DNA of 61,974 nucleotides, taken from the NCBI RefSeq assembly GCF_001403795.1, contig NZ_CXSU01000005.1:403526-465499 (forward strand), in the 5' to 3' direction. Under the pieces are notes generated by a model. That model saw nothing but the letters and a program-made list of their open reading frames with translations. It was not told the origin of the DNA and searched no databases. The stretch's first letter is position 1. Each line of letters begins with the position of its first letter. The translations under genes and the position numbers were made by a program. Positions 22,129 through 42,988 of the stretch are shown here, one piece after another. Origin of the DNA: Jannaschia donghaensis (GTDB lineage: Bacteria > Pseudomonadota > Alphaproteobacteria > Rhodobacterales > Rhodobacteraceae).

Positions 22129-22143
22129 AATGGCGGAGACGAA
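22129..22143. repeat. Candidate distal attachment site of the island (15-bp direct repeat)
   Basis: AATGGCGGAGACGAA here is identical to 42974-42988, where it overlaps the 3' end of the tRNA-Ser gene. The copies are direct repeats 20.8 kb apart, and the truncated integrase lies just inside the right copy. This is the pattern left by tRNA-targeted site-specific integration. Confidence 0.7.
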
Positions 22144-22552
22144 TTCCGAAAGTTGTTGCTTACCAGTTGGTTAAGTGATTTTTTTGAATGCGGGATCGCT
22201 GCGTGCTGCGGATTGTGTAGCATAATTGAGCAATTCTGGCTTCTCGTGGTTATTGGCAGGGGAAACTTGATACTCGACACCTTTCAATCGGAAGGCCTGG
22301 CGACTTCGCGCTTTGGTTCGCACGGCGCTGATATGTACGCCCAGATCAGGAGGCCCCAAAGCGGCCATTGCGGCCGTCCACGTGGCGTGTTGGATGCCGC
22401 AGCGCGGCCGGCCAGACCGGACATTCGCCGCGCCTGCGAACTGCGGCTAGTTGTGAGCTGACGGATCCGGGACTTTGCGTACACTACTCAATGTACTTGC
22501 GTAGCCCAATCCCAGTGGAAATGATGGTAATTGAACGGCACCTTTCCGGTCA
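22144..22552. other. Island left end, no gene seen
   Basis: About 410 bp of lower-GC sequence inside the left repeat. I find no supported frame, RNA or strong stem-loop. It lies downstream of the minus-strand DUF1214-like gene. Confidence 0.4.
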
Positions 22553-23908
22553 TTAGAACCCGCGTGGAGTCTTCAGCGCGCTCAAATGCCGGGCAGCCAG
22601 CTGGGCTTTTCTTTGTTCCGGCGTAAATTTGGGTTCGTCCTTCAGCTTTTCGCCCAGCTGATCAAACGTCCAAATATGTCTTTCGGGGGCATTTGGCGCT
22701 TTTGGTTCTTCGTCGGGGCAGTACGGTATGCCTTGCCAGCGCATGAAAACAAAAGCGGTGGAGGCACCGGCAGGGTCCAACCAGTTTTCAAAACCCGGGT
22801 CCTTTGCGCTGATGACAAACCGATACTTGCCGTCCTCACTTTGATAAGCCTGCTTCGTCGTCAGACTTGTCTGCCGACGACGAAAATCAAAGGCATTGAA
22901 CCAAAGATCGCCCAATTGAATGCCCTGGTACCTGGCGTCAGATCTCTCCACCGTGATGACAATGGCTGTATCTTCACTCATCTGGAAATGACCGGCGGAG
23001 TTGAATTGCCCTGGCAAGCCTTGCCCAGTTTTTCGCGGGGCGCTAATATGATTGGCCGGTAAATTGACTCTGAGCTGCTCGACGAATTTTATCCAGCCCC
23101 TCGTGGACCCGGTCAAATAATCCGACGCCCGTTTATATTGCAGGTCAACTAGCTCAGGGGATGGCAGCGGATTAATTTGACCAACCGTGTCAATCCGTTC
23201 TATCCGCCATGTGCCGCCCGTTTCCGTGTTCCAGTCCATCAGGCTTTCTCTGATCAGTACGCTGTTAGCGCAGAGTCCCCGTTCCGTGTTGCTTAGCCAG
23301 TTTTCACCGGCCTTCAGGTCGCAGGGCTTGGTATCACTGATGGTGATAGTGAATTCACCGTTTCGTTTGACCGACAACGCGTCCAAATCCAACTCACTGA
23401 CTGGGATGGGGCTAGTGAGGTCTTCGTCAAAGCCTGGTTTGCCGGCACCAACTTGGATCTGCAAATCAGCGCTGGTTCCGCGTTTTCCGTAGATCACATA
23501 GGTTCCGGGTGTTTCGATACTGGCAAGAAAGTAGAGGTTGTCCGGATTTACCAAGCCAAACTGGTTGTGCATATCCAGTTGGCAAAACTCGGGAAAACAT
23601 GGATCGTGCAGGACAAATCCTTGATCCAAAGCGGAGGCGATCTGGTGCTTGAGCTGTCGTTCGGCAGCGGCAAGTTCAAGGTCCGGGTTCGGACTGTATT
23701 GTAGCCAAGGGGCCAGTGTCATGGAGTGCCGGGCTTGCTCGATCGCGCGTGCAAACCGTTCCGAGCCGGCAAGCCTGGATGGGGTTTGCGACCAATCTGC
23801 CAGTGGATTCTTCATTCGAGATTGGGCCGGCGTGAACGGGGCGGATGGGTCCCCCACGGTATTGCTGCATTGGATTCTTTCGTTCGATGTCGTTTCCATG
23901 TCTGTCAC
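22553..23908 (-). CDS. DUF1214-like protein
   Basis: A 451-residue protein without signal peptide or membrane helices. The segments LVNPDNLYFLASIETPGTYV with YGKRGTSADLQIQVG, then GEFTITISDT, NWLSNTERGLCANSVLIRES and LMDWNTETGGTWRIERID match the pattern of DUF1214 proteins (NPDN..Y, RG, NW, R...DW), which accompany steroid and hydrocarbon catabolism in sphingomonads and actinobacteria. No enzyme activity is established. GC is lower than in the neighbouring core genes, consistent with transfer. It stands alone between two gene-free stretches. The start is the first ATG of the frame; MKNPLADW at about residue 32 is an alternative. Confidence 0.7.
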   Translation of the reverse strand: MTDMETTSNERIQCSNTVGDPSAPFTPAQSRMKNPLADWSQTPSRLAGSERFARAIEQARHSMTLAPWLQYSPNPDLELAAAERQLKHQIASALDQGFVLHDPCFPEFCQLDMHNQFGLVNPDNLYFLASIETPGTYVIYGKRGTSADLQIQVGAGKPGFDEDLTSPIPVSELDLDALSVKRNGEFTITISDTKPCDLKAGENWLSNTERGLCANSVLIRESLMDWNTETGGTWRIERIDTVGQINPLPSPELVDLQYKRASDYLTGSTRGWIKFVEQLRVNLPANHISAPRKTGQGLPGQFNSAGHFQMSEDTAIVITVERSDARYQGIQLGDLWFNAFDFRRRQTSLTTKQAYQSEDGKYRFVISAKDPGFENWLDPAGASTAFVFMRWQGIPYCPDEEPKAPNAPERHIWTFDQLGEKLKDEPKFTPEQRKAQLAARHLSALKTPRGF

Positions 23909-24807
23909 GCTCTTGCTTTAATGATTACGGATCGACCAGCAGGCCAGATTACTCATTGGTCGTGCGAGCTCAGGGAACGGTTCAAAGAAAAACCGAAATT
24001 TGGAGCGTGGCTCGTTCGACGCCCAGGCCCTGTCTTTGAAGCCATTGGGATACGAGTCCCTGTTTAATCGACGGCTCCGACACTACTCCCGTCTCCAGCG
24101 AACTCACGCCGATCTATTCGCATATCGTTTTGACACCGGTTTACATTGACGACATGTCGTAGCTTCTGGCCACAAAGGCATCGTCACCGGGAGAGCACGG
24201 TCGCCTGATGCTTACGTTGCTCGGGTTTGAGACCAGACTTGCGGCAACTCGTCAGTTTGAGCGCGAAGTTCCCTGTATTCACTTCGTTGCCGGCCGCTCG
24301 TCGACTGGGTGCGCAGATGTCATCCAGAGGTCTCAACGAGGGATGTCCGACCCCTGGCGGGACCTCGACCAATGATACCCGAAATGCTACCCTGGGTGAT
24401 GCGAGGCAAACAGAAGCCCCTGCTATACAATACCGGACACGGTCATCTCGGCTGGACACTCGCCTCAGCAACCGCCGCGCTCGTGGCGGATCTGGCAGTA
24501 GCCTAGGAGTGCCGCCTAGCCCGGCGCTCGGGATCATTCCATACAAGTCTCATCGGGTGACAGGGCTGGAACTGGTCTTACCAAAACAGATCCGGACCGT
24601 CACCGACCCATTCGGCCCGGAACAGTGACATCTCGCGGTAAGCACCGGGCCTGCGGACAGCGATCTGGGATGGCACCCGGTTGCTCTAGATGTCTTTGGT
24701 GCGGGACGATCAATGAGATCTCTCGATGCAAATTCGGTCTGTGTCCTGATTTTAGATAAAGGTGCCGCCGACCTTTCGTGACGGCGGGACGGAGCTGCTC
24801 CGCTGCG
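23909..24807. other. Gene-free stretch in the island
   Basis: About 900 bp upstream of the DUF1214-like gene and downstream of the M81 gene. Frames are short, overlapping and of poor codon use. I see no recognisable protein remnant or RNA. It probably represents joined fragments of older insertions. Confidence 0.45.
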
Positions 24808-41672: not shown

Positions 41673-42863
41673 CCGGATGCGGTCGTCGATCCCGGCGGCG
41701 AGCATGCGGTCCTCGAAGGAGTGGCGCAACGAGTAGAAGGAGTGACGCGGCGTCTCGAGCAAACCATTCGCCCGAAGGAATTTGTTGACGACCGCGCTGA
41801 GTGTAGCCCGGCTGGGGTAGCGGGGGAAGCCCTCGGGATATTGCTTGAAGGCTTCCAACGAGACGCCCGTCAGGGGGATCACGCGGCGGGCGTACCGGCT
41901 CTTCAATTGACGCCCCTCTGCTTCGATGGAGATATGTGGCACGTCGCAATCGAGCCGGATCGTATCCGTCGTCAACGCCGCTCCTTCAGATGGGCGATAG
42001 CCGGTGTTAATCATACCCAACAGCAAAGCGCGCGCTTGGCCATTCAAGCCGTCCAGCGCGCCGGGGGCGAGCAGGCGTGTCTTGATCCACTCCTCGCTGA
42101 ACGGTGGACGGGTCCTTGCCTCGCTCTCCTTGAGGGACAGTTCGCCGAGCGGCAGCGATAGCCCAAGGCGCTTCATCGTATTCACGGTCTTCAGCACGTC
42201 GGCGAGATGGATCAGGTCCTTGTTGGCCGAGTTCGCCGTCACTTCACCCGCCGCGATCCGGTCCAGCCAGTGCTGACGGAAGTCCAGCATGTCGTCGCGG
42301 ATGATGTTCGCGATTTCCTTGTCGCCGACCACCGCGACGAAATTGTGGATCGTCCTGCTAAGCGGTGCTTCCCAGCGGCGCAGTTGGTCTTCGCTTTTGC
42401 CGAGGGTCTTCTCCCTCGCGAGCGTCCAATAGAGTTGCAGCGCCTTGGTGACCGTGATGCGGGGTTCGGGAACAGTGCCGAGAAGGGCGGCGGCCTCGAC
42501 GGGGTCGGGCTGGTTCGCGGGAGCCGGAATGGCCTCGACGCGTGCGACAAATTCCTCGATCAGCAGTTTGGCCACACTGCCCGCGTCCAGATACCGAAAG
42601 CCCCGCGCCCGAGCGAGGTAGCGCGCCGCCTCATAGCGGGTTTCCGCGTCTCTGCTGTTCCCGGCCAGACGCGCTTCCCAGGCTTCGATCATCTGGGACC
42701 ACGCGCGATCCGCCTTGCTGTGAGCGACCGTCTCCGAGTCGGTATGCAGGCTGATCCAGACCGTTACGCGCGGCTCAACCCCGCGATACCGGCGTGGAAC
42801 GCGACGTCTCAAGTGAAAGGTGCTACGCCGCTTGGCAATGCTTATGACGGAAAATCTCCGCAT
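41670..42863 (-). pseudogene. Tyrosine recombinase (island integrase), C-terminally truncated
   Basis: About 395 residues of a phage-type integrase: N-terminal RRSTFHLRRRVPRRYRGVEP (DUF6538-like), a core-binding domain, and the catalytic start LLLGMINTGYRPSEGAALTT with the first Arg, plus HSFYSLRHSFEDRMLAAGID (His/Arg box). After DDRIRR, where relatives continue to the last His/Trp box and the Tyr nucleophile, the sequence switches to RND pump DNA, so the catalytic Tyr is absent. The frame remains open into RND sequence, giving a 566-codon chimera. It begins 111 bp from the tRNA-Ser attachment site. Confidence 0.87.
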
Positions 42864-42973
42864 TTGTGTAGCAAAATGTGCAGCAAATCAATCGGACCAA
42901 GAACCGCCATAAGCGCGAAAGTGCCAAATTCCACATTACTATCTGGTGGTTATGAGATAGCGATTCTGAGGAA

Positions 42974-42988
42974 AATGGCGGAGACGAA
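42974..42988. repeat. Proximal attachment site at the tRNA-Ser 3' end
   Basis: AATGGCGGAGACGAA, identical to 22129-22143. Bases 42979-42988 are the last ten of the tRNA gene; the rest is just beyond its 3' end. This is where tyrosine recombinases of islands usually cross over. Confidence 0.7.

Follow-up and report, generated by a model that had tools for sequence, protein, structure and literature searches.

The locus considered here raises the question of whether a short direct repeat, one copy of which lies at the end of a tRNA-Ser(GCU) gene of Jannaschia donghaensis, marks the two ends of an integrated genomic island, and whether such an island could still move. We analyzed a stretch of 61,974 nucleotides of contig NZ_CXSU01000005.1 (referred to as the window) together with related genomes. 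At the level of the sequence, both copies of the repeat are confirmed as the ends of a predicted site-specific island at tRNA-Ser(GCU). It is highly probable that this island was placed by a tyrosine integrase, was then immobilised, and now forms the tRNA-end part of a variable region of 58-59 kb.

The 15-bp repeat (AATGGCGGAGACGAA) occurs on the plus strand at 22129-22143 and, as an exact match, at 42974-42988, the positions given in a preliminary description of the window, and is present exactly twice in the whole 3.48-Mb genome. No third copy was found in the window at up to two mismatches; in a shuffle control with the same tolerance, the mean number of matches was 0.27, and two or more matches were obtained in 2 of 100 shuffles. 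The probability of a chance second copy had been put at about 6 in 100,000, which was a fair estimate, as the base composition of the window with both strands counted gives about 8e-5. ARAGORN placed a tRNA-Ser(gct) with an encoded CCA at 42976-43063 on the minus strand, and the right copy is, as had been described, the tRNA 3' end: it consists of the final 13 nt including the CCA, plus 2 nt. Read outward from the tRNA, the letters are TTCGTCTCCGCCA and then TT. With one core counted, the unit extends over 22131-42975 (20,845 bp), and its far end carries a correctly oriented direct repeat of the tRNA 3' end, as in Islander-type islands. The copy at 42974-42988 is thus the tRNA-side attachment core, and the copy at 22129-22143 would be the distal core, a displaced tRNA 3' end.

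Since the left flank has no match in relatives, an empty site was unavailable, and the left repeat was tested through the integrase family instead. A search of species genomes for this family gave 77 loci, in 61 of which a tRNA ends less than 600 bp upstream of the integrase. These tRNAs are tRNA-Ser in 56 cases (GCU in 19, CGA in 19, GGA in 10 and UGA in 8) and other tRNAs in five, and the integrase matches start 104-193 bp past the end of tRNA-Ser. A whole-genome search for the core pattern covered 26 neighbourhoods, namely 24 of the 77 loci, picked by core type and contig room, and two others (G002 and G004); for five of them (G002, L095, L097, L108 and L109), a second copy was known beforehand. 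A same-strand copy of the 13-mer was present at most 40 kb downstream in 10 of the 26 neighbourhoods (paired by hand), and outside this arrangement of side and strand only one copy was found, in L159 (opposite strand, upstream side). Each of these ten has a tRNA-Ser followed by the integrase and, at a distance of 7.6-33.9 kb downstream, by the tRNA 3' end in direct repeat. The sizes are 9.0 kb (G002), 7.6 kb (L095), 8.0 kb (L097), 8.4 kb (both L108 and L109), 12.5 kb (both L129 and L155), 13.9 kb (L112), 27.4 kb (L111) and 33.9 kb (L110), and the unit of 20.8 kb in the window falls inside this range.

A model of the distal arm was built from the 110 bp before the distal core of the ten elements, with the 13-bp core and the window excluded, and was scanned with nhmmer against 102 kb, that is, the window and 40 kb to its left. 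The best match was 22226-22145, which abuts the left repeat (E 6.7e-9). The second was the tRNA-side arm at 42888-42862 (E 6.6e-6), and the third was noise (E 5.5). An ungapped matrix built on the final 45 bp scored 41.8 at the left repeat and 5.5 at the next-best site. This blind test gives what we regard as the strongest, and decisive, support for the left repeat as the predicted true end; together with the ten elements of like organisation, it supports the island at tRNA-Ser(GCU) with the two ends originally proposed.

The model matched at the left repeat because both arms share a phased repeat. In the alignment of the ten elements, an 11-bp sequence, TTTGCTRCACA, recurs with a 12-bp phase on both arms. 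Its positions, within 1 bp, are +89, +101 and +113 relative to the CCA on the proximal arm and -97 and -85 relative to the distal core on the other. Counted with up to two mismatches, at least three proximal copies are present in eight of the ten elements (L155 has one and L129 two), and two distal copies in nine (L129 has one). The window retains two proximal copies, 12 bp apart on the minus strand (42865-42887), and one distal copy (22214-22224) within the conserved distal arm (22144-22226, minus strand). At least two phased repeats follow the tRNA in 44 of the 61 loci, and fewer in 17. Attachment-like pairs in two further genomes (G077 and G082; loci L190 and L191), at tRNA-Ser(CGA) and 16.8 and 8.8 kb apart, have no such arm repeats; none of their open reading frames matches those of the integrase family, and related, unassigned open reading frames lie near their distal ends.

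The named relatives of the island are those of the G002 genome, Rhodovulum robiginosum (L095), Rhodophyticola porphyridii (L097), Aliiroseovarius (L109) and Thioclava atlantica (L129). Like the window, they have at a tRNA-Ser an integrase, 64-86% identical, with the tRNA 3' end repeated distally and with the arm repeats. Unlike the window, eight of the ten related elements have an uninterrupted integrase (that of L155 is truncated and that of L111 interrupted), and six encode a DUF3363/relaxase homologue, of which the one in L095 was scanned with Pfam. Eight also have an open reading frame after the integrase, which in G002 encodes 122 aa with no Pfam family. Tandem stacking was observed elsewhere: G020 has, about 11.6 kb away from the tRNA, a distal-type core with a second integrase behind it; in L158, which is on the same contig as L103, a distal arm and core (9793-10189) directly precede an integrase fragment; and at about 9870 of L102, a distal-type core is directly ahead of another integrase of the family.

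The best explanation of these results is that a tyrosine integrase recombined the island's own copy of the tRNA-Ser 3' end with that of the host. The target gene at 42976-43063 would have been regenerated from the island copy, and the displaced host copy left at 22129-22143 as the far end. The phased TTTGCTRCACA repeats of both arms would be bound by the integrase, which would cleave within the shared core. A rearrangement after integration would then have removed roughly the final 28 integrase residues and the open reading frame next to the gene in eight of the ten related elements, and joined a fragment of an RND pump to the gene; compared with most relatives, the window also lacks an arm repeat on the proximal and another on the distal side. 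The unit would now act as fixed accessory DNA.

Three observations speak against this explanation. The left flank (20640-22128) was matched in none of the 19 other genomes of the genus, and the empty site that had been expected to read from 22128 into the tRNA was not found. In 16 of the 26 neighbourhoods, no exact distal copy was found up to 40 kb downstream; the contig runs out before that distance in nine of these (L096, L101, L107, L115, L125, L127, L130, L135 and L139) and reaches it in seven (L098, L104, L138, L148, L159, L164 and G004). Finally, the relaxase gene and the integrase-partner open reading frame of related elements are missing from the unit, and thus the interior could be DNA foreign to the element.

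The preliminary description named a tyrosine integrase as the next gene inward. The gene is indeed present inside the unit near the tRNA, as in Islander-type islands, and the open reading frame at 41163-42863 (minus strand) opens as a DUF6538/Phage_integrase protein in Pfam, but it is truncated and fused to a fragment of an RND pump. It is 86-87% identical to the integrase of G002 up to residue 400. Past this residue, the integrase frame enters the pump DNA, not in the pump's own frame, to give an open reading frame of 566 residues. Residues 1-400 thus correspond to 41662-42863, and comparison with the family shows that a C-terminal end with R-x-R-Y is missing. This end is present in all 43 other full-length relatives, and its Tyr is presumably the catalytic residue; in a weak alignment to the XerC-like recombinase of PDB 4a8e, the Tyr of the relatives is one residue off a Tyr there. 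The complete C-terminal catalytic end with Tyr that characterizes an active recombinase is therefore lacking in the window protein. The pump fragment (41225-41665, minus strand; ACR_tran positions 875-984 of 1021), which joins the integrase at about 41653-41665, shares 69% identity with the intact pump at 5772-8894 and, at this identity, is not a recent copy of it. It is followed by a broken outer-membrane efflux gene with in-frame stops (40015-41166, minus strand), seen in a three-frame translation and by a weak, sub-cut-off OEP match of one piece.

Without its C-terminal end, the integrase is unlikely to excise the unit, and the island is probably immobile in this copy. A search of the genome at E 0.001 gave no further integrase of this family. 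The window unit lacks the open reading frame that follows the integrase in most related elements, and in the window and 40 kb to its left neither a relaxase gene, as expected of a mobilizable element, nor a remnant of one was detected (tblastn with the DUF3363/relaxase protein, best E 0.098). Other members of the family may also have lost the integrase end: in 17 of the 77 loci, the best integrase segment ends before residue 300 of 428, although at least three of these (L156, L165 and L166) are contig ends and frame breaks can also shorten segments. The short integrase of L155 is found in an element that has nevertheless retained its attachment pair.

The main intact cargo of the island is a set of eight genes. 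An M81 (MlrC-type) metallopeptidase (24808-26289) and a dipeptide-type ABC importer (26302-31668), which consists of a substrate-binding protein (SBP) of family 5, two permeases and two ATPases, are followed by an RpiR-type regulator (31679-32620), all on the minus strand, and by a divergent FAD-dependent oxidoreductase (DAO; 32632-33819, plus strand), as assigned by Pfam. Judging from these families, the operon may serve to take up, hydrolyse and oxidise compounds resembling peptides or amino acids. Among 394 genomes of the bacterial family, 22, with the genome of the window counted, have the M81 peptidase at E 1e-120. The SBP gene was searched for in the 19 other genomes of the genus and was found in none at E 1e-100, an absence from relatives that is expected of Islander cargo. 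A DUF1214 protein (22553-23908, minus strand) lies at the low-GC end of the island (GC 0.53 at 22-24 kb). Pfam matches at 34091-37809 indicate a LysE exporter, an AraC regulator, Usp, an ArsP_1 permease and an ArsR-type regulator, and two adjoining low-GC open reading frames (38184-39766, plus strand) have no Pfam or PHROGs match. The stretch 24227-24628 was considered as a gene remnant, has no Pfam match, and is not claimed as one. Of seven proteins scanned against PHROGs, five (three from the window and two from relatives) were unmatched and the other two were integrases, and no phage structural gene was found among the few proteins scanned. The cargo of G002 is of a different kind: its 9-kb element (L073 12433-18633) has matches to models of PDC-S36, NsnA, a cytosine methylase and a type II restriction enzyme, that is, restriction and other defence families, compared with the metabolic cargo of the window.

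One alternative is that the attachment pair is true but the interior is largely later DNA, the backbone having been lost and the operon and pump fragments brought in by other routes, for example recombination mediated by a plasmid or an insertion sequence (IS). The missing backbone genes and the patchy GC content are consistent with this. Furthermore, the operon is found on Sulfitobacter plasmids. On that of Sulfitobacter mediterraneus, the gene order is identical and adjoins an IS6 transposase; on that of a Sulfitobacter sp., RpiR is the first listed gene in the record and is preceded by a DAO match in the same place as in the window. In nine further genome contexts, all eight genes are present in six, RpiR and the oxidoreductase are absent from two, and only M81 (E 1e-20) is present in one. 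These 11 contexts, of which 10 have all or most of the operon and one has only M81, gave no tRNA-Ser hit in the DNA fetched. However, elements with the same ends differ in content and in size, up to 33.9 kb, and no transposase was found among the island proteins scanned, a set that excludes some small open reading frames. We therefore hold a later origin of most of the interior to be possible but somewhat doubtful.

The surroundings of the island are relevant to a second alternative. To the right of the tRNA lie likely genes for an L,D-transpeptidase (43295-43921), YchF (44015-45112) and an RTX-repeat protein (45594-47258); the open reading frames 43304-45193 and 45366-47792 were rejected as antisense frames. 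The order of tRNA, L,D-transpeptidase and ychF is common to several relatives. To the left, conserved chromosome is marked by a PfkB gene (in 20 of 20 genomes of the genus) and a GDSL gene (in 19 of 20, with no match in G007). The GDSL gene, which in the J. donghaensis genome is outside the window, about 38 kb further left than 22128, lies downstream of the tRNA on the same contig in eight of the 20 genomes, J. donghaensis included. The distances, by subtraction, are 0.5 kb (G005), 45.0 kb (G006), 47.3 kb (G011), 52.0 kb (G004), 57.1 kb (G008), 59.3 kb (J. donghaensis), 80.0 kb (G014) and 86.3 kb (G012). It is on the other side of the tRNA on the same contig in five genomes (G001, G010, G013, G015 and G018) and on a different contig in six (G002, G003, G009, G016, G017 and G019); the downstream side would be the ancestral one. 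Comparison of the 59.3 kb here with the 0.5 kb in the compact relative G005 makes the 20.8-kb unit the tRNA-proximal part of a variable region of 58-59 kb that otherwise extends to the left of it. In 18 relatives, for which 1.5-30 kb were fetched, few genes just past the tRNA are common between genomes; the site thus resembles a hotspot in which the island is the unit nearest the tRNA.

The left repeat could then be a chance copy, and the true import the whole region of 58-59 kb from the tRNA to the conserved PfkB and GDSL genes. The contrast with G005 agrees with this, and most of the DNA to the left of 22129 has no match next to the tRNA in the compared relatives, the exceptions being weak copper-gene matches, in G012 at 9-11 kb downstream and a single one in G010. 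However, the left repeat lies directly against the distal arm conserved in the family, the related elements of 7.6-33.9 kb share these ends, and no further copy of the 13-mer (up to one mismatch) was found out to 40 kb left of the window. A chance repeat is rejected by the blind arm test and is very improbable. As an outer end of the wider region, a core with two mismatches near -16.2 kb was also rejected, because such cores are common (eight at most two mismatches away, on both strands of 83 kb, with the perfect copy included) and because G004 has the next gene inward in common with the J. donghaensis genome. That the unit is an intact integrative mobilizable element, still movable, is extremely improbable and is rejected on the truncated integrase: although both cores and parts of both arms persist and six of the ten related elements encode DUF3363/relaxase homologues, the integrase has lost its C-terminal end, and neither a relaxase remnant nor a second family integrase was detected.

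The preliminary description also held that all accessory and broken genes of the middle of the window lie inside the island, which is incorrect. A truncated CheB methylesterase gene (20938-21543) is just outside the left repeat, and a block of about 9.9 kb (45114-55039) between ychF and trpA encodes the RTX-repeat protein, an S8 peptidase, an ECF sigma factor and a sugar-type ABC importer. The ychF and trpA matches nearly abut in G002, G003 and G005, which lack the block at that position, and in G012 a homologous block (45673-49847) sits just downstream of tRNA-Ser instead. The lowest 1-kb GC content of the window (0.46) is at 54001-55000, and a short repeat of 73% identity links the left flank (21744-21831) to the low-GC stretch on the right (about 53644-53731). 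A copper-type block at 16229-20625 (DUF411, cytochrome c, CopC, CopD, a metal-sensitive repressor, DUF305 and MauE) is found in G002 about 0.8 Mb from tRNA-Ser(GCU) and about 6 kb from another tRNA-Ser-like match. Window positions 1-674 (malonyl-CoA synthase) and the DNA to their left (about 8994-15429 of L178) match one chromosomal block elsewhere in G002 (67-73% identity); thus, the placement of the DNA to the left of the island is mixed.

The integrases of the family sit at four tRNA-Ser isoacceptors, GCU, CGA, GGA and UGA. A quick tree of 44 integrases requires at least 19 changes of the tRNA label, with a least possible number of 7, although this count is rough because of uneven support (20 of 41 inner branches are open). 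With shuffled labels, there were 23.7 changes on average, and three of 200 shuffles were as low as the observed 19; the label is thus partly clustered on the tree. Two Hyphomonas genomes (L121 and L122) have nearly identical integrases at CGA and GCU, and one Pseudogemmobacter genome (L131 and L132) has close integrases at CGA and GGA. One lineage may hop among the tRNA-Ser isoacceptors of alphaproteobacteria, with a fixed set of phased repeats on its arms and the 3' end of whichever of these tRNAs it encounters, carrying defence cargo in at least one member (G002) and repeatedly leaving derivatives that are immobilised once the integrase end is lost. The window would be one of these, with a metabolic operon. 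We offer this tentatively, at slightly less than even confidence.

The case provides base-exact ends for an alphaproteobacterial island and a comparative test of attachment sites that is workable without an empty site, and its anatomy of core, arms and phased repeats is common to dozens of related loci. The isoacceptor switching raises the question of how one integrase uses targets with differing acceptor-stem letters and leaves each tRNA intact. The island itself is an ordinary, known kind of mobile DNA and a good example of it. Among the papers listed in our literature searches, we recognised none that describes this integrase family, and DUF6538 gave no paper. Background on marine mobilizable elements is given in sections of PMC11104534. 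In the relevant sections of PMC4383910, Islander islands have a tyrosine integrase by the regenerated tRNA and a displaced 3' fragment at the far end, and tandem arrays are known. The window shares the integrase position and the displaced tRNA 3' fragment in the right orientation, and differs from the islands of those sections in its truncated integrase and in the wider variable region around the island. In table rows of PMC12429752, phiLM21-like prophages of Sinorhizobium meliloti, some of them at tRNA-Ser(GCU), are 53-54 kb in size. In the window, no phage structural gene was found among the few proteins scanned; common to both are a tyrosine integrase, tRNA-Ser(GCU) as the target, and a tRNA that would be rebuilt on integration.

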